A program made the position numbers and the translations under genes. A model generated the notes under the pieces. That model saw only the letters and a program-made list of their open reading frames with translations. It was not told the origin of the DNA and made no database searches. This document shows positions 2,333 through 9,106 of a stretch of 40,290 nucleotides of DNA, piece after piece. The first letter of the stretch is position 1; the number at the start of each line of letters is the position of its first letter. Source of the DNA: Paracoccaceae bacterium (GTDB lineage Bacteria > Pseudomonadota > Alphaproteobacteria > Rhodobacterales > Rhodobacteraceae); contig JAAELR010000004.1 of the NCBI GenBank assembly GCA_024226455.1, positions 1-40,290 of the forward strand. Direction: 5' to 3'.

Positions 2333-3700
2333 TTAGCCGAGGGGCTCGAACTTGCAGGTGAAATGGCGCATCAATTTCTGCTCCCAGGTGATGCGGTAAC
2401 CTCTCAGGCTATCCTTCATCGCGGCCAGTTCCTCAAAGACCTCGATGATGTAATCGGCGTGCGATTGCGTGTAGGTCCGTCGCGGGAAGGCCAGCCGGAC
2501 CAGATCCATCGCCGCGGGCACCTCGCTTCCGTCGGGCTGGCGGCCAAACATCACCGTTCCGATCTCGACAGCGCGAATGCCGCCCAGTTCATAAAGGGCG
2601 ACGGACAGGGCCAGACCGGGATAGGACAGCGGGTCGATATGGGGCAACCAGGCCCGTGCATCGATGAACACGGCATGTCCGCCCGCGGGCTTCACGACCG
2701 GAATGCCCATCGCGTCCAGCCGGTCGACAATGTAGGAATTGGTGCGGATACGGTATCTCAGATAGTCCTCATCCACGATCTCGACCAGACCCTGAGCCAG
2801 TGCCTCCAGGTCACGGCCCGACAGGCCGCCATAGGTCGGGAAGCCTTCGGTGCGGATCAGGTGGCCCCGTGCGATTTCAGCCAGGTCATCGTCATTCAGC
2901 GCCAGCCAGCCGCCGATATTGCCGAACGCATCCTTTTTCGCGCTCATCGTCATGCCGTCGGCTTGCGCAAAACAATCGCGCACGATCTCGGTGATCGAAC
3001 GCTCGCCCTGGCCCGTCTCGCGTTGCTTGATGAACCAGGCGTTTTCCGCAAAGCGGCACCCGTCGATGATGAACGGCTTGCCGAATTCCCTGGCCATCGC
3101 GGCCACCGCGCGAATGTTCTCCAGGCTTACCGGCTGACCGCCGCCCGCGTTGTTGGTGATCGTCAGCATTACGCATGGAACGGCATCCCCATGCTCTTCA
3201 AGATAGGCGCGCAGCTTGCCCAGATCCATGTTGCCCTTGAACGGATGCAGCGATTGCGGATCGAGCCCCTCGTCAATCACAAGGTCGGCCCCTTCGGCAC
3301 CCGAGGCCTCGATATTGCCACGGGTGGTATCGAAATGGGTGTTGTTGGGAATGCGCCGGCCGGGCCCTCCCATGATGGAAAACAGGATGGCCTCTGCGGC
3401 GCGGCCCTGATGTGTCGGAATGATGTGTTTGAAATTCATCAGGTTTTGCACTGCGGCCTGAAATCGGAAAAACGACGGTGAACCCGCATAGCTTTCGTCG
3501 CCGCGCATGACCGCGGACCATTGTGCTGCACTCATGGCGCCGGTGCCGCTGTCGGTCAGCAGGTCGATCATCACGTCCTGGGAATGCAACTGGAACGGGT
3601 TGAAATGCGCCTCTTTGATCAGGCGAACGCGTTCATCGCGCGTTGTTACCCGGATCGGTTCGACGGATTTTATGCGGAAGGGTTCAAAGATGGTTTTCAT
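2333..3700 (-). CDS. tnaA: Tryptophanase (tryptophan indole-lyase)
   Basis: This 455-residue PLP-dependent beta-eliminating lyase cleaves L-tryptophan to indole, pyruvate and ammonia. It aligns along its length with tryptophanase/tyrosine phenol-lyase: DLLTDSGTG near residue 47, PTHQGR near 95, ARF-like CRFAEN near 215, and the PLP lysine in MSAKKD (K256). Two positions separate the two enzymes. Tyrosine phenol-lyase has an Arg in its SMERG segment, where this protein has RAVEIG as in tryptophanase. It also has MRHFT near the C-terminus, the tryptophanase His, where the phenol-lyase has Phe. ATG 3700 is chosen because an AGGAG site lies just upstream and the family N-terminus starts there; the frame is open 17 codons further. 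No tnaC-like leader or tnaB permease is recognisable nearby. Confidence 0.93.
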   Translation of the reverse strand: MKTIFEPFRIKSVEPIRVTTRDERVRLIKEAHFNPFQLHSQDVMIDLLTDSGTGAMSAAQWSAVMRGDESYAGSPSFFRFQAAVQNLMNFKHIIPTHQGRAAEAILFSIMGGPGRRIPNNTHFDTTRGNIEASGAEGADLVIDEGLDPQSLHPFKGNMDLGKLRAYLEEHGDAVPCVMLTITNNAGGGQPVSLENIRAVAAMAREFGKPFIIDGCRFAENAWFIKQRETGQGERSITEIVRDCFAQADGMTMSAKKDAFGNIGGWLALNDDDLAEIARGHLIRTEGFPTYGGLSGRDLEALAQGLVEIVDEDYLRYRIRTNSYIVDRLDAMGIPVVKPAGGHAVFIDARAWLPHIDPLSYPGLALSVALYELGGIRAVEIGTVMFGRQPDGSEVPAAMDLVRLAFPRRTYTQSHADYIIEVFEELAAMKDSLRGYRITWEQKLMRHFTCKFEPLG

Positions 3701-4204
3701 CAGGGGCTCCTGTCTGTCGGCCCCCTTTTTCGCGCGGCAACCAATGAACACGGGGCGGGCCAGCGCTACGGTTGTCCGATCTGCGGACCGCGCTCAGCGC
3801 CCTTAAGGTTGCAGCCCATGTGATTTCACGTTCGAAGGCCTCGATCAAGCCCTTGATGCAGATTTCAGGGAGATGCCGAAATGGCGGGCTTGACCCATTG
3901 CCGGATACCGCGATGCAGCCGGTTCTCGGGTCTTTGCCGTTTGATGGTGATCGTGCCCATGCGCGGAACAAGCCGTAATTCAACGCGCCAAGAGCGCGTG
4001 TTGCAACGCCGTCACCCTGGCTCTGCGCCTGTCCGGCTTGGCGCGCTGGCAGCGATGCGGGACGCGGGGCCGGATTTGCTGGCCGGGCAGAACGGGCGGT
4101 TGGGCGCGAAGGTCAAGAGCGGCATTGATGTCGCTGGCAGGCGGTTTTGGCCGGATTGCGGCTGTTTAGCTGGCCCTGTGCAGAACTGGGAACGGAGCGC
4201 GGCG
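3701..4204. other. Intergenic region between tnaA and the URO-D-family gene
   Basis: About 500 bases separate the divergent tnaA and URO-D-family genes. Several short open frames exist on both strands, but none shows a recognisable domain or a convincing ribosome site with a family start. A loose inverted repeat (CAACGCGC against GCGCGTGTTG, about 3979-4004) is the only structure noticed. The region presumably contains both divergent promoters; I could not identify convincing -35/-10 pairs. Confidence 0.5.
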
Positions 4205-5383
4205 ATGAACTCCAAGCAACGATTTCTGACGGCGCTGGGGCTTGGCATCCCCGACCGGGTGCCCATGTGGGACTGGTTCGATGAGCCCGTGGTCTATGAC
4301 GTGGCCGCCGAACTGGGGCTGATCCGGTCCGCCGATCTGGGGCTGCTCAGCCGGCGCGGCAGCGAGACCGGCGGCTATACCGAGCTTTATTGCGATATCA
4401 TCGGGGCGCTGGATGTCGACGGCACCCAGAACGTGATCGATACCGGGTTCACCCGGACCGGCGACGAGACCGGGCGCGACCGCTATGGTCGGCATTTCAT
4501 GCTCAGCACCCATGGCGAGCCCATGGTGCTGGAGCCAGCGGTGCGCACATCCGAGGATATCGCCGGCTACGATATGCTGTCGTTTCTGTCGGACCGGGAT
4601 TTCGATGGCATCCGCGAGGTGATCCGGCGCCATCCCGACCGGGCCCACGGGCTGAACGTCAAGGGCCCCTTTGCCGAGGCCTGGCTGAACATCGGCGGCA
4701 TGGACAAGCTGCTGGTGGCCTTCGGTTCCGATCCGAAGCTGGCGCATGACGCCATGGCCATGTCGGTGGGCTGGAGCAGGGCGGTGCTGGATCTGGCCGC
4801 CGAGGCGGGGATCGAGTTCGTGGTGACCGATGCCGATCTTTGCGGCAACGATTTTCCCTTGATGTCCTACGAGCATTTCCGGGAGTTCCTGGTGCCCTAC
4901 AAGCGCGAGCTGGTTGAGCACGCCCATGGGCTGGGGTTGAAGGTGATAAAGCATACCGACGGCATGGCCTGGCGGCTGATGGATGACTTCATCGCAATCG
5001 GTTACGATGGCTTTCACCCGGTGCAGCCGCAATGCATGGATCTGGCGACCACCAAGGCCTATTTGCGGGGCCGGATGAGTGTCTGGGGCAATCTGGACTG
5101 CCTCGATCTGCTGGTGTTCGCCACGCCAGAGCGGGTCGATGCCGCCGCCAGACAGGTCATCGCGCAGGGCGCGCCGGGGGGTGGCTATGTGTTCGCCTCG
5201 TCAAATTCGCTGCATCCGGGCTGCCGGGCGGAGAACGTGATCGCCATGTTCCGGGCGGGGCGCAAATACGGCGACTATGCGCATATCCCGGCCAATCTGC
5301 CCCCGGCCCCGGCGCCGCCCGACACCACGCCTGTGCGCCAACGGCGCCAGACCAGGCGCCGGGCGAAAGCGTTCGCCGGATGA
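4205..5383 (+). CDS. Uroporphyrinogen decarboxylase (URO-D) superfamily protein
   Basis: This 392-residue protein belongs to the URO-D superfamily, a TIM-barrel group that includes HemE and the corrinoid methyltransferases (MtaA, MtbA, CmuA). Family features visible are the N-terminal SKQRFLTAL...PDRVPMW, the mid-protein FVVTDADLCGND, a SYEHFREFLVPYKRELVEHAH stretch (residues just after 220), and WGNLDC in the C-terminal half. The zinc-binding HxC of MtaA-like methyltransferases is replaced by HTDG (in KHTDGMAW). This, and the lack of HemE substrate motifs, argue against a plain heme role. ATG 4205 has CGGAG about 8 bases upstream. The tail is Pro/Arg-rich and low-complexity. Its stop overlaps the next start (ATGA), so it heads a cassette of small-molecule catabolic enzymes. 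A methyl-transfer or decarboxylation role is inference. Confidence 0.82.
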   Translation: MNSKQRFLTALGLGIPDRVPMWDWFDEPVVYDVAAELGLIRSADLGLLSRRGSETGGYTELYCDIIGALDVDGTQNVIDTGFTRTGDETGRDRYGRHFMLSTHGEPMVLEPAVRTSEDIAGYDMLSFLSDRDFDGIREVIRRHPDRAHGLNVKGPFAEAWLNIGGMDKLLVAFGSDPKLAHDAMAMSVGWSRAVLDLAAEAGIEFVVTDADLCGNDFPLMSYEHFREFLVPYKRELVEHAHGLGLKVIKHTDGMAWRLMDDFIAIGYDGFHPVQPQCMDLATTKAYLRGRMSVWGNLDCLDLLVFATPERVDAAARQVIAQGAPGGGYVFASSNSLHPGCRAENVIAMFRAGRKYGDYAHIPANLPPAPAPPDTTPVRQRRQTRRRAKAFAG

Positions 5384-6018
5384 CCCCGCGGGTCGAGGTG
5401 TTTTACTCGCTGCAAAGCGACTACTGCTATTTCCTGCTCGACCGGTTGCTGGGGCTTAGCCGCGGCGGGGTCGATGTTGCGGTCCGCCCGGTGCTGGGCG
5501 GTGTGATCCGCATCCCCGACCGCTATCGCGGACGCCAAGCGCTGGAGCAGCGCTATTTTGACACCGACACGAACCGCACGGCAGCGTTTCTGGGTCTGCC
5601 CTACGCCTATCCCGACCCTTCGCCGATTGCCTTCGAGCCCGGCTCGCTATGGGTCGCGCGAGGTGAACAGCCGAGAAACGAGCGCCTCAACCGGCTGTTT
5701 GTCGGGGCGGTGCGGGCGGGGCGGGGGTTGGAGTTTCTTGACCATGTGGGGCGGATGCTGTGGGACGGGTCCACCCCCGGCTGGGATCGGGGTGACCACC
5801 TGGCGCGCGCGATGGCGGCGGCGGGGCTGGAGATCGGGGCGGTGCTGGCGGGTAATGGCTGGGAGAGTGTGGCACAGGCACTGGCAGCCAATGACCATGC
5901 TTTGCACACCGCGGGTCATTGGGGCGTTCCGCTGATGGTGTATGAGAGAGAGCCGTTCTACGGTCAGGATCGGTTTGACCAGCTATTGTGGCGGATGAAG
6001 AGGCGAGGTGCCCGATGA
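5380..6018 (+). CDS. DsbA-like / 2-hydroxychromene-2-carboxylate isomerase family protein
   Basis: This 212-residue protein has the thioredoxin fold with inserted helical domain seen in DsbA, kappa-class GST and 2-hydroxychromene-2-carboxylate (HCCA) isomerase. The N-terminal VEVFYSLQSDYCYF occupies the place of the family active-site loop, whose usual form is SPYS. Here it is SDYC, keeping the Ser and substituting the rest. The central helical part (GAVRAGRGLEFLDHVGRMLWDG) is family-like, and the C-terminal HWGVPLMVYEREPFYGQDRFDQL matches the GVPTF...FWGQDRL signature of kappa/HCCA enzymes, including the cis-Pro after GV. The start overlaps the stop of the preceding gene by ATGA, so translation is probably coupled. 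A glutathione-dependent isomerisation is a reasonable guess, given the downstream GST; the substrate is unknown. Confidence 0.8.
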   Translation: MTPRVEVFYSLQSDYCYFLLDRLLGLSRGGVDVAVRPVLGGVIRIPDRYRGRQALEQRYFDTDTNRTAAFLGLPYAYPDPSPIAFEPGSLWVARGEQPRNERLNRLFVGAVRAGRGLEFLDHVGRMLWDGSTPGWDRGDHLARAMAAAGLEIGAVLAGNGWESVAQALAANDHALHTAGHWGVPLMVYEREPFYGQDRFDQLLWRMKRRGAR

Positions 6019-6281
6019 TGGTGCCCGGGAAACGGGCGGCAAGAAACCAGGCCCTTGCCGTGACAGATGGGTGTCGCGGAACGGTGCGCGCCCTTCAATC
6101 TGCCCGTTGTGCCGCTGGCGGCATGTCATTCGAGGCGCCTGGGCTGGCGTTGAAGGCAGGCGGCTATGGGGGCGCTATGGGGAACTATCCGGTGCGTCAG
6201 AGCGTGCAAGGCAGGTGTATCACGGGGCGAAACCGCATTACGATCACCTCTACGCGCATCGGATTCGGCTGGGGGGAATAA

Positions 6282-7724
6282 ATGGATAGCTATTGGCAGA
6301 ACTGGATCGGTGGCGAATGGGTCGATGGCGGCGCCGGGCGGCTGACGGTCGAGGACCCGGGCAGCGGCGAGGTGCTGGCCGAACAGGCGGCGGCGGATGG
6401 CGCGGATATCGACCGGGCCGTGGGCTCGGCCCGGGCTTGCCTGACCAGCGGCGTGCTGACCGACATGCGCCCCATGGAACGCGGTCGTCTGGTGCAGGAG
6501 ATGGGCCGCTGGATCGCGGCGCGGGTGGACGAGATCGCCCAGATGCTGACCTGCGAGCAGGGCAAGACCCTGTGGGAGGCGAGGACCGAGGCCAGCAACT
6601 GCGCCCGGTATTTCGAGTATTACGGCAATCAGGCGGCGACGCTGGAGGGGCGTTCGATCCCGCTCGGCGCCGGTTATCTCGACTTTACCGCGCTGGAGCC
6701 CTATGGCGTCTCGGCGCAGATCATCCCGTGGAATTTCCCGCTGGAGATCACCGCCCGCTCGATCGCCTGCGGGCTGGCCACCGGCAATGCCTGCGTGGTG
6801 AAATCATCCGAGATGACGCCGATGTCGTCGCGCTATTTCGCGCTGGCCGCCGAGGCGGTGGGGCTGCCCCGGGGCGCGCTGCACATCCTGACCGGCTGGG
6901 GGCATCAGGCGGGCGCGGCGCTGGCGGGGCATCCGGATATCAACCAGATCGTGTTTACCGGCTCGGTGGCGACGGGGCAGAAGATCGCCGCCGCCGCGGC
7001 GCAGACTGTGGTGCCATGCGTGCTGGAACTGGGCGGCAAGTCGGCGGCCATCGTGCATGACGACGCCGATCTGGCGGCGTTCGAGATGGATGTGCGCCGC
7101 GGCATCTTCGTCAATGCCGGGCAGATCTGTTCGGCCATGTCGCGTGTGGTGGTGCATGAGGCGGTGCATGACGAACTGGTCGAGCGCATCGCGGGCGTGG
7201 CGCGGTCGCTGTCGGTCGGGCCGGGCATCGAGCGGGCGGAATTCGGGCCCAACATGGGGCCGATGATTTCTGAAAAACAGCGCGACCGTGCGCTCGGCAT
7301 GGTGGCAGAGGCCGAAGCCGCGGGCGTGCGGCTGGTGACCGGCGGGCGAAGCCCGAACCTGCCGGGGTTCTTCATGGAGCCGACGGTGCTGGCGGATGTC
7401 GCGCCGGGGATGCGCATCGCGCAGGAAGAGATATTCGGCCCCGTGGTCAGCGTGCTGAAATTCCGCGACGAGGCCGAGGCCATCGCCATCGCCAACGGCA
7501 CGCAATACGGGCTGGTGGCGGGCGTCTTCACCCGCGATCTGGACCGGGCGACGCGGGCGGCAAGGGGCTTGCGCGCGGGTCAGGTGTTCGTCAACGAGTG
7601 GTTCGCCGGCGGGGTCGAGACGCCGTTTGGCGGCTACGGCAAGTCGGGCTATGGCCGCGAGAAGGGCTGCGAGGCGCTGATGAACTATGTGCAGACCAAG
7701 AACGTGGCGATCAGGTTGCGCTGA
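6282..7724 (+). CDS. NAD(P)-dependent aldehyde dehydrogenase
   Basis: This 480-residue member of the aldehyde dehydrogenase superfamily oxidises an aldehyde to the carboxylate. The oxyanion Asn lies in PWNFPLE (N151), the general base in VLELGGKS (E249) and the nucleophile in GQICSAMSR (C283). FTGSVATG supplies the nucleotide-binding loop, and EEIFGPV and the C-terminal PFGGYGKSGYGREKG are also family-typical. Length is normal for the class. It begins 263 bases after the isomerase gene and shares its stop with the start of the next gene (TGATG). The neighbours (URO-D-like, HCCA-isomerase-like, GST, CMD) suggest a catabolic aldehyde. Substrate class cannot be read from sequence; betaine-aldehyde, succinate-semialdehyde or aromatic aldehydes all remain possible. 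Confidence 0.95.
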   Translation: MDSYWQNWIGGEWVDGGAGRLTVEDPGSGEVLAEQAAADGADIDRAVGSARACLTSGVLTDMRPMERGRLVQEMGRWIAARVDEIAQMLTCEQGKTLWEARTEASNCARYFEYYGNQAATLEGRSIPLGAGYLDFTALEPYGVSAQIIPWNFPLEITARSIACGLATGNACVVKSSEMTPMSSRYFALAAEAVGLPRGALHILTGWGHQAGAALAGHPDINQIVFTGSVATGQKIAAAAAQTVVPCVLELGGKSAAIVHDDADLAAFEMDVRRGIFVNAGQICSAMSRVVVHEAVHDELVERIAGVARSLSVGPGIERAEFGPNMGPMISEKQRDRALGMVAEAEAAGVRLVTGGRSPNLPGFFMEPTVLADVAPGMRIAQEEIFGPVVSVLKFRDEAEAIAIANGTQYGLVAGVFTRDLDRATRAARGLRAGQVFVNEWFAGGVETPFGGYGKSGYGREKGCEALMNYVQTKNVAIRLR

Positions 7725-8455
7725 TGGCGAACTACACGCTCTACTACCACCCGATCCCGTTTCGCGGTCAGTTCATCCGCTGGGTACTCGCCCATGCCGG
7801 TGCCGATTGGGACGAGCCGGCGCATGGCGAGGTTCTGGGGCTAAAGTCCCTGTCCGTTACCGATCAGCCGGTACCCTTCATGGCGCCGCCGCTGCTGGTC
7901 GATCACGATGCCGGGCTGTCGCTGGCGCAGATGCCGGCGATACTGACCTATCTGGGGCAAAAACACGGGGCGATGCCCGACGATCCGGCCCGGGCGGCAT
8001 TGACCGGCAAGGTGATCGCCGATGCCAATGACGTGCTCGACGAGATGACGCGGTATGGCGGGCGCTCGATGTGGACGCAGGTGGCTTGGGACGGGTTCGC
8101 CGCCGACCGGCTGCCGCGCTGGATGCAGATCTTCGAAGAGACCGGGCGGCGGCACGGGCTGAGCCGGCAGACGGGGTTTCTGCTGGGCGGCGATGCGCCG
8201 GGGCTGGCCGATCTGGTGACGGGTTGTCTGTGGTTCACCATGACCAGCAAGCTGCCGGTATTGCAGCCGATGCTGGCCCGGCATGCTCCGGCGGTGGCGG
8301 CGCTGTCGACCCGGATGGCCGGTCGGCCGCCGGTTGCCGCCCTGCGGGCACGCACGGATGCGGCCCTTGGCGATACCTGGTGCGGGGGGCAGATCGAGGC
8401 GTCGCTGCGCCGGGTGCTGGGGGGCATGAAAACCGGGAAAAGGATGAGGGCATGA
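7724..8455 (+). CDS. Glutathione S-transferase family protein
   Basis: This 243-residue protein opens with a thioredoxin-like GST N-terminal domain (YTLYYHPIPFRGQFIRWVLAHAG) and a MAPPLLVDHDAGLSLAQMPAILTYLG segment. The latter corresponds to the cis-Pro strand and the glutathione-binding Gln/Ser-Met turn. A helical C-terminal domain follows, with GFLLGGDAPGLADLVTG matching the conserved N-capping region of GSTs. The Tyr residues near the start could serve as the glutathione-activating residue, but the class is unclear. The length is slightly above the usual 200-220, with a basic tail (GKRMRA). Its start overlaps the aldehyde dehydrogenase stop and its stop overlaps the next start (ATGA), indicating an operon. 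Conjugation or glutathione-dependent cleavage in the cassette's pathway is inferred from context. Confidence 0.87.
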   Translation: MANYTLYYHPIPFRGQFIRWVLAHAGADWDEPAHGEVLGLKSLSVTDQPVPFMAPPLLVDHDAGLSLAQMPAILTYLGQKHGAMPDDPARAALTGKVIADANDVLDEMTRYGGRSMWTQVAWDGFAADRLPRWMQIFEETGRRHGLSRQTGFLLGGDAPGLADLVTGCLWFTMTSKLPVLQPMLARHAPAVAALSTRMAGRPPVAALRARTDAALGDTWCGGQIEASLRRVLGGMKTGKRMRA

Positions 8456-8841
8456 GCCTGTTTGACGAGGATTTGTTCGAAAAGGGGCTGGCCCGGCGCA
8501 AGAGCACGCTGGGGGCTGAGTATGTGGAAAGGAACCTGGCGGCGGCGGATGAGTTCACCCGGCCATTCCAAGAGGCGATGACCGCCTGGTGCTGGGGGTT
8601 CGGCTGGGGTGACGAGGTGATCGACGCCAAGACCCGCAGCATGATGAACCTTTCGATGATCGGCGCGCTGGGCAAGATGCACGAATGGGAAATCCACCTG
8701 AACGGCGCGCTGAACAATGGCGTCAGCAAAGAAGAGATCCGGGCCATCATCCACGTGGTCGGCATCTATTGCGGCGTGCCGCAATCGCTGGAGTGCTTTC
8801 GGGTGGCGCGCAAGGTGCTGGAGGAACGCGGGCTGCTGTGA
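8452..8841 (+). CDS. Carboxymuconolactone decarboxylase (CMD) family protein
   Basis: This 129-residue protein has the size and pattern of single-domain CMD-family proteins related to PcaC. The features are a WCWGFGWGDEVIDAKTRSMMNLSMIGALGK core, then HEWEIHLNGALNNGVSKEEI, and a C-terminal IYCGVPQSLECFRVA resembling the CGVPAA..AFR of gamma-carboxymuconolactone decarboxylases. The redox CxxC of AhpD-type members is absent, so a peroxidase role is unlikely. PcaC acts in the protocatechuate branch of aromatic catabolism, but no other pca gene is present here; a paralogous role on a different lactone or keto acid is equally plausible. It is the last gene of the overlapping 4205-8841 series. Confidence 0.85.
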   Translation: MSLFDEDLFEKGLARRKSTLGAEYVERNLAAADEFTRPFQEAMTAWCWGFGWGDEVIDAKTRSMMNLSMIGALGKMHEWEIHLNGALNNGVSKEEIRAIIHVVGIYCGVPQSLECFRVARKVLEERGLL

Positions 8842-9106
8842 CCGGCTGCCGCCCTTTGTCGCCGCAATGCCGCCTGACGCAGATCGTGCGGATCGAGGGA
8901 CAGGCCAACAACGTGGTTCCGGGCCAGGTCAGCTGAGTGCACTTGCAAGACGATAGCCTGCCGGAAGGGCGTTTCGACGCGCCGAGATCCACGCCCCCGG
9001 GCGCGGCTTGGGCAATCGGGACTTTTCAGTTATGCGTGATCGCTTTAGTCTCTACCGACCGAGCCACAGATCCCGCGGCCCTATTTCGATTACCGGACCT
9101 ATGTGA

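Follow-up and report, generated by a model that had tools for sequence, protein, structure and literature searches.

The DNA analysed here, called the window below, is a stretch of 40,290 nucleotides (positions 1-40290 of contig C4) from a Paracoccaceae bacterium, whose genome is a 4.36-Mb draft, 98% complete. It carries on its forward strand a cassette of five genes whose most probable origin, as judged from sequence, is the rebuilding of a type of gene cluster that recurs in the family. The first gene (4205-5383) encodes a URO-D-fold enzyme of 392 amino acids (aa; Pfam URO-D, 1.2e-21) and the second (5380-6018) an HCCA-isomerase/kappa-GST-like thioredoxin-fold protein of 212 aa (Pfam DSBA, 1.6e-9), hereafter URO-D and HCCA. 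They are followed by the genes of an aldehyde dehydrogenase (ALDH; 6282-7724, 480 aa; Pfam Aldedh, 4e-153), a GST of the Atu5508 family, NF052468 (7724-8455, 243 aa; Pfam GST_C_8, 6.4e-57) and a CMD-family protein (8452-8841, 129 aa; Pfam CMD, 1.6e-18). Between HCCA and ALDH, also on the forward strand, lies a relic consisting of the C-terminal 33 codons of a sulfotransferase-like gene, SULF (6173-6271). All five open reading frames are intact, and their order and place were confirmed.

The cassette and its proteins

Three of the four junctions in the cassette are overlaps: URO-D and HCCA have ATGA in common (5380-5383), ALDH and GST have one base in common within TGATG (7722-7726), and GST and CMD again have ATGA in common (8452-8455). 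The sole non-overlapping junction is a gap of 263 bases between HCCA and ALDH (6019-6281). An earlier note on this DNA, made from the sequence alone, had described both the overlaps and the gap, and these are real, but its count of junctions was off by one. Third codon positions have a GC content of 0.76-0.87 in the cassette genes and of 0.62-0.68 in those frames of the gap that were measured, and comparison with relatives gives the cassette genes crude pN/pS values of 0.17-0.57 (synonymous sites of HCCA being saturated); both agree with the genes being functional. Between 3700 and 9200, 3 terminator-like sites, all outside the gap, and no promoter-like site were found, in a test that is weak for DNA of high GC content (chance expectation 3.0 and 1.0, respectively). 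The cassette would be read as a single transcript.

The ALDH scores 510.7 bits against Pfam Aldedh, above the cut-off, and has the catalytic residues Glu249 and Cys283 in place. Its best match among 44 families is the betaine-aldehyde dehydrogenase TIGR01804, at 411.5 bits, below the cut-off of 668.6. The GST passes the NF052468 cut-off (333.5 bits against 245), and the CMD protein, which is PcaC-like and has no CxxC motif, stays under that of PcaC TIGR02425 (118.5 bits against 155.7). The structure model of HCCA (pLDDT 92.8) shows a thioredoxin fold with a helical insertion. Its top structural matches are 2imd, 3fz5, a DsbA-like protein and kappa GSTs, with HCCA isomerase ranking first, and it is 14-22% identical to the solved HCCA/kappa structures. 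The fold is thus common to HCCA isomerases and kappa-class GSTs, whereas the motif reads SLQSDYCYF here and SFRSPYSY there. Ser13 and Pro184 are invariant in 9 of 9 aligned sequences; we take the serine to be catalytic, and the protein might perform a glutathione-dependent cis-trans isomerisation or transfer. URO-D falls far below the NCBIfam cut-offs for HemE (TIGR01464; 19.2 bits against 302.95) and for MtaA/CmuA (TIGR01463; 65.9 against 235.4). The five family names given in the earlier note are confirmed by Pfam, and its further descriptions also stand: two proteins of glutathione-type families, a URO-D-type protein, which is not HemE, and an aldehyde-oxidising enzyme.

The SULF relic and the betaine-type clusters of the family

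Translation of 6173-6271 gives 33 residues that match the C terminus of SULF in 7 of the 7 SULF proteins compared, with 42-64% identity. The match reaches 47.8 bits, whereas the best of 500 codon shuffles gave 24.6 and the best of 290 pieces from elsewhere in the window 23.9, and when SULF was searched by tblastn over the whole window, 6173-6268 was the only match at E <= 1e-3. The reading frame of the relic continues to a stop at 6289, just within ALDH. In the 5 loci (of the 80 CMD loci described below) that have both genes at >=60%, the distance from the end of SULF to the ALDH match is always between -4 and 31 bases. The relic is direct sequence evidence that the ALDH of the window formerly stood behind SULF. 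No further relic was found at E < 0.1 upstream (3752-4204) or downstream (8842-9106) of the cassette in comparison with the open reading frames of 15 loci.

The ALDH was searched in its own genome only, and each of the other four genes was searched alone in other genomes; the comparison set includes one genome only from the genus of the window. CMD relatives at E <= 1e-40 occur in 97 of 248 same-family genomes including its own (96 of 247 others), with 50-90% identity, most of them 78-90%. We opened the CMD neighbourhoods at 80 loci (79 genomes) of the 98 non-window matches, with flanks that reach about 8 kb at most and less where a contig ends, which makes the counts lower bounds; outside this count, 3 matches were opened earlier, 1 was opened later and 14 were unopened. 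Within 8 kb of CMD, a Rieske gene (scored at >=60% to the Rieske protein of locus L072) was present in 30 neighbourhoods, an RpiR gene in 26, a DMGDH-like gene in 22, ALDH in 16, a GFA-like gene in 11, AMD in 8, SULF in 8 and GST in 2, and HCCA and URO-D in none. Fourteen of the 16 ALDH-bearing neighbourhoods also have the Rieske gene. The names AMD and SULF come from the L076 relatives (Amdase and Sulfotransfer_5, respectively), and GFA is a reading of the sequence.

The cluster that recurs in the family runs RpiR - Rieske - GFA - AMD - SULF - ALDH - (GST) - CMD, divergent from the DMGDH-like gene. Locus L188 has RpiR, Rieske, two GFA-like genes, AMD, SULF, ALDH (70%), GST (54%) and CMD (87%), and L072 has RpiR, Rieske, HCCA (69%), a decayed ALDH and CMD (85%). 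On the divergent side of L072 stand genes of the DMGDH-like protein, an alcohol-dehydrogenase-like protein, a DMSP-lyase-like cupin and three enolase-superfamily proteins. The ALDH of L072 (8113-8458), between HCCA and CMD, is reduced to two fragments in different frames. The best NCBIfam match of the L072 Rieske protein is GbcA, at 157.7 bits, far under the cut-off of 670. The FAD protein of the cluster has the DAO-GCV_T architecture, as in dimethylglycine dehydrogenases (DMGDH), the enolase-superfamily proteins have cis-3-hydroxyproline dehydratase as their nearest family without reaching its cut-off, and a BCCT transporter is present in L076 and L222. The putative substrate class of the cluster is probably of betaine type, that is, an N-methyl amine. 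A search of the open literature, little of it aimed at URO-D and no proof of absence, found no description of a Rieske-SULF-ALDH-CMD cluster.

Compared with these clusters, the window keeps their order of ALDH (64-79%) and CMD, has a GST gene in between as L188 does, and bears a relic of SULF at the place, before ALDH, where relatives have the gene itself; the ALDH-(GST)-CMD tail is thus present in order. HCCA stands directly behind the Rieske gene in L072 and L077, and behind URO-D in the window. Conversely, the window has no RpiR, Rieske, GFA, AMD, intact SULF or DMGDH gene, and URO-D is added. The lack of a Rieske gene also sets it apart from the GbcAB-type demethylation of glycine betaine and proline betaine, to whose GbcA the Rieske proteins of the relatives are nearest. 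Conservation of gene order, which the earlier note had proposed as a check, gave a divided answer: the complete set of five genes, and hence their order, was not found in any other genome examined, while two- and three-gene orders recur.

In a tree of 30 ALDH rows, the window ALDH groups with ALDHs from betaine-type clusters in a clade of 17 rows (support 100/99). Since CMD neighbourhoods were the source of the rows, these adjoin CMD by construction; L116 (an ALDH fragment) and L008 are not in the tree. The six other ALDHs of the same genome that were included fall outside the 17-row clade. The window sequence is nearest to that of L245 of genome G132 (100/99) and then, weakly, to that of L216 of G125 (86/65), where the full Rieske cluster is present.

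HCCA, searched alone in 248 genomes, has strong matches in 6 other genera. In three of them (G036, G193 and G199) CMD is at most 5 kb away and the cluster includes a Rieske gene (49% in G193); in the other three, CMD was not seen on contigs of 4.5-10.4 kb, and the Rieske gene, sought in L073 alone, was not seen there. The closest HCCA relatives stand in betaine-type clusters, namely that of L072 and a truncated one with 58% identity. The HCCA relative of L077 (9166-9522), with 119 of 212 residues matched, lies between Rieske and CMD. HCCA-type relatives of about 40% elsewhere in the class were set aside as another subfamily with a different gene environment; 11 loci were opened of 49 other genomes that gave a match, none with ALDH, GST, CMD or URO-D. 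GST, searched alone at E <= 1e-40, was found in 11 of 248 genomes including its own, and in 3 of the 10 other genera (G097, G109 and G141) the next gene downstream of it is CMD. Among plasmid records there were 3 weak matches to URO-D, none to HCCA and 83 to GST, and in five plasmid GST regions that were opened no other cassette gene was found.

The URO-D-fold enzyme and its rare subfamily

URO-D belongs to a rare subfamily with the signature motifs KHxDG, HPVQPQCM, GNxDC and SSNSxHP. Its structure model (pLDDT 88.5) has MtaA 4ay7 as top structural match (Z 34.3, root-mean-square deviation 2.4, 318 residues aligned), in a tie with human UROD 1uro (Z 33.4, deviation 2.8, 328 aligned). Over residues 1-363 the fold is common to the UroD-fold methyltransferases (MtaA, CmuA, CdmB, MtvB and VdmB) and HemE. 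A profile of the subfamily likewise finds MtaA (3.3e-12), HemE-type proteins (1.3e-6) and CdmB (1.4e-5). The H-x-C of MtaA aligns to H250-x-D252 of URO-D and the third MtaA residue, a Cys, to N334, so that the MtaA motif, whose residues we take to be zinc ligands, is absent here; there is also no corrinoid gene adjoining URO-D. Residues H250, D252, N334, C277 and C299 are the same in all 22 members aligned (alignment A2, made of the window and 21 of 33 loci, with the 12 loci L029-L033 and L035-L041 left out). According to PMC13222342, CdmB has a UroD-type fold and does not require zinc; the loss of the zinc motif would for that reason be compatible with methyl transfer.

The subfamily is sparsely distributed. 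A search with the single protein gave matches at E <= 0.001 in 3 of 149 same-family genomes, and the two outside its own genome are 29-30% identical over about half of the length. With the profile, E <= 1e-50 was reached in 2 of 394 same-family genomes, its own and G706 (46% identical), and E <= 1e-80 in 1 of 308 genomes of the class, again its own. In the 19 kb opened around the G706 relative, the other four cassette genes were not found. Neighbours were counted at 15 of the 33 URO-D loci, 18 being left out: a LysR gene is upstream in 11 of the 15, and a gene of an HD protein, which matches PhnZ and TmpB, is directly upstream in 6. In L010, L011, L013, L015, L020 and L025, LysR is divergent from the PhnZ/TmpB-like HD protein, and the URO-D relative comes next after the latter; this arrangement forms a small unit that recurs in metagenome-assembled genomes. 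Many URO-D loci of such genomes bear the isolate codes Cli, Bse, Vin, Cca and Ust, which presumably denote reef-sponge species.

Origin and working of the cassette

Because of the relic, the gene orders and the ALDH tree, derivation of the cassette from a betaine-type cluster is likely. The fuller reading, that it is a rebuilt descendant of such a catabolic cluster, now led by URO-D and working as follows, is the one we favour, at even confidence. The front of the cluster from RpiR to SULF would have been lost except for the last 33 SULF codons, with URO-D and then HCCA now in its place. URO-D would be the substrate-choosing step, removing a methyl or other C1 group, or a carboxyl group, from a small, probably N-methylated, carboxylate, and the resulting aldehyde would be oxidised by the ALDH, which resembles betaine-aldehyde dehydrogenase. 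The HCCA/kappa-type protein and GST might be the glutathione-using enzymes by which a reactive intermediate is rearranged or trapped, and CMD would act on the ALDH product or be accessory. The chemistry and the substrate are a guess; our best guess is that ALDH is supplied by a front end that removes a methyl, C1 or carboxyl group.

Several observations weigh against derivation from the cluster and against the proposed working. No Rieske, ALDH, GST, HCCA, GFA, AMD or SULF gene accompanies CMD in 47 of the 80 neighbourhoods, which indicates that CMD works elsewhere too. Gene order in the cluster also varies: L119 and L190 have SULF, but no ALDH, in front of CMD; in L204 SULF follows CMD, and in L076 it lies away from ALDH on the opposite strand. 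A BCCT or GFA gene separates ALDH from CMD in L222 and L117. In L245 (4653-8460), which has the closest ALDH (79%) and a CMD of 82%, a desaturase-like gene and a xylose-isomerase-like TIM-barrel gene precede ALDH (both labels are readings of the sequences); L245 has no Rieske gene, and no SULF relic was found before its ALDH. The ALDH-CMD pair thus has at least three front ends (Rieske, desaturase-like and URO-D), so that this tail does not fix the substrate; given L245, the pair may serve unlike substrates. Among the 33 URO-D loci, which come from named genomes, HCCA, GST and CMD were found in none within the available flanks, several of which are short, and ALDH in L037 alone, at 42% identity and about 9 kb away. 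The own genome of the window adds to these points. A search without positive control gave no match to the cluster Rieske protein, and the 22 matches to the DMGDH-like protein comprise 11 full-length ones at 30-37%, two of these with an internal stop, and one fragment of 84 residues with a stop, at 50%; none is as near as the DMGDH-like proteins within clusters, which are 72-86% to that of L072. The rest of the pathway is therefore absent or different in this genome.

Predicted N-methyl chemistry is nevertheless prominent in the genome, through genes other than those of the cluster. Of the full-length DMGDH-like (DAO-GCV_T type) paralogs, two are adjacent on contig 442 and two are near each other on contig 158. 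Outside the cassette there are three PF02607 corrinoid-protein genes, and in one place (L273, 6841-9094 of contig 393) the corrinoid protein adjoins an MttB-like methyltransferase, the label being a reading of the sequence. Contig 393 also bears a DMGDH-like gene and one ALDH, the second closest in this genome.

A rather unlikely alternative is that two units of unlike origin and function, URO-D-HCCA and ALDH-GST-CMD, the latter with its own promoter in the gap, were joined by rearrangement and share no pathway. The gap, as the only non-overlapping junction, falls just where such units would meet; the 15 URO-D loci carry LysR (11) and HD (6) genes without the other four genes, save for the one distant ALDH, and the ALDH-CMD pair is found behind unlike front ends. 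On the other hand, the position of HCCA directly behind Rieske and near CMD in L072 and L077 argues for HCCA as part of the tail, the URO-D and HCCA genes have ATGA in common, and the promoter search, weak as it is in a high-GC genome, found no such site in the gap.

Corrinoid-dependent demethylation, in which URO-D would be a methyltransferase I like CdmB, MtvB and VdmB and would transfer the methyl group to a corrinoid protein whose gene lies elsewhere, replacing the Rieske N-demethylase, is in our view unlikely. The first place of MtaA among the structural matches and the profile matches to MtaA and CdmB speak for it, as do the three corrinoid-protein genes of the genome, one of them beside the MttB-like gene; but HemE-type structures tie with MtaA, and the profile finds HemE-type proteins too. 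Two of the three presumed zinc ligands of MtaA are replaced, a point eased by the finding on CdmB cited above. The cassette has no corrinoid protein or activator gene, and the recurring neighbours of the URO-D subfamily are LysR and HD genes, not corrinoid genes. A bolder form of the rebuilt-cluster reading, which we consider quite improbable, is that an oxygen-independent UroD-fold demethylase replaced an oxygen-dependent Rieske demethylase at one locus, with the aldehyde/glutathione tail kept and a fossil of the old operon left behind; this would be the first function for the URO-D subfamily.

The earlier note had put forward that a methylated aromatic is broken down by glutathione-linked cleavage of its ring or chain, which is very improbable. 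In favour of it, the second gene has HCCA isomerase as its best fold match, and the HCCA-isomerase, GST and CMD families have members in aromatic pathways. Against it, the ten annotated genes (1-11.6 kb of the window) include none for ring activation or ring cleavage, CMD is under the PcaC cut-off, and the partners that recur in relatives are those of betaine-type clusters. Divergent from URO-D on the reverse strand lies a tryptophanase/tyrosine-phenol-lyase-like gene (2333-3751), which passes the PRK13238 subfamily cut-off and does not reach the TnaA and TPL equivalog cut-offs.

Derivation from a betaine-type cluster gives the cassette a testable history, with a parent cluster, genes lost and genes inserted. 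If URO-D does the job that the Rieske protein has in the relatives, the locus would show that the first, substrate-choosing enzyme of a pathway can be swapped with the downstream genes kept, and it would offer a handle on a rare URO-D subfamily. If URO-D does not have that role, ALDH-CMD would be a reusable tail with several front ends, which would be useful for annotating the betaine-type clusters of the family.

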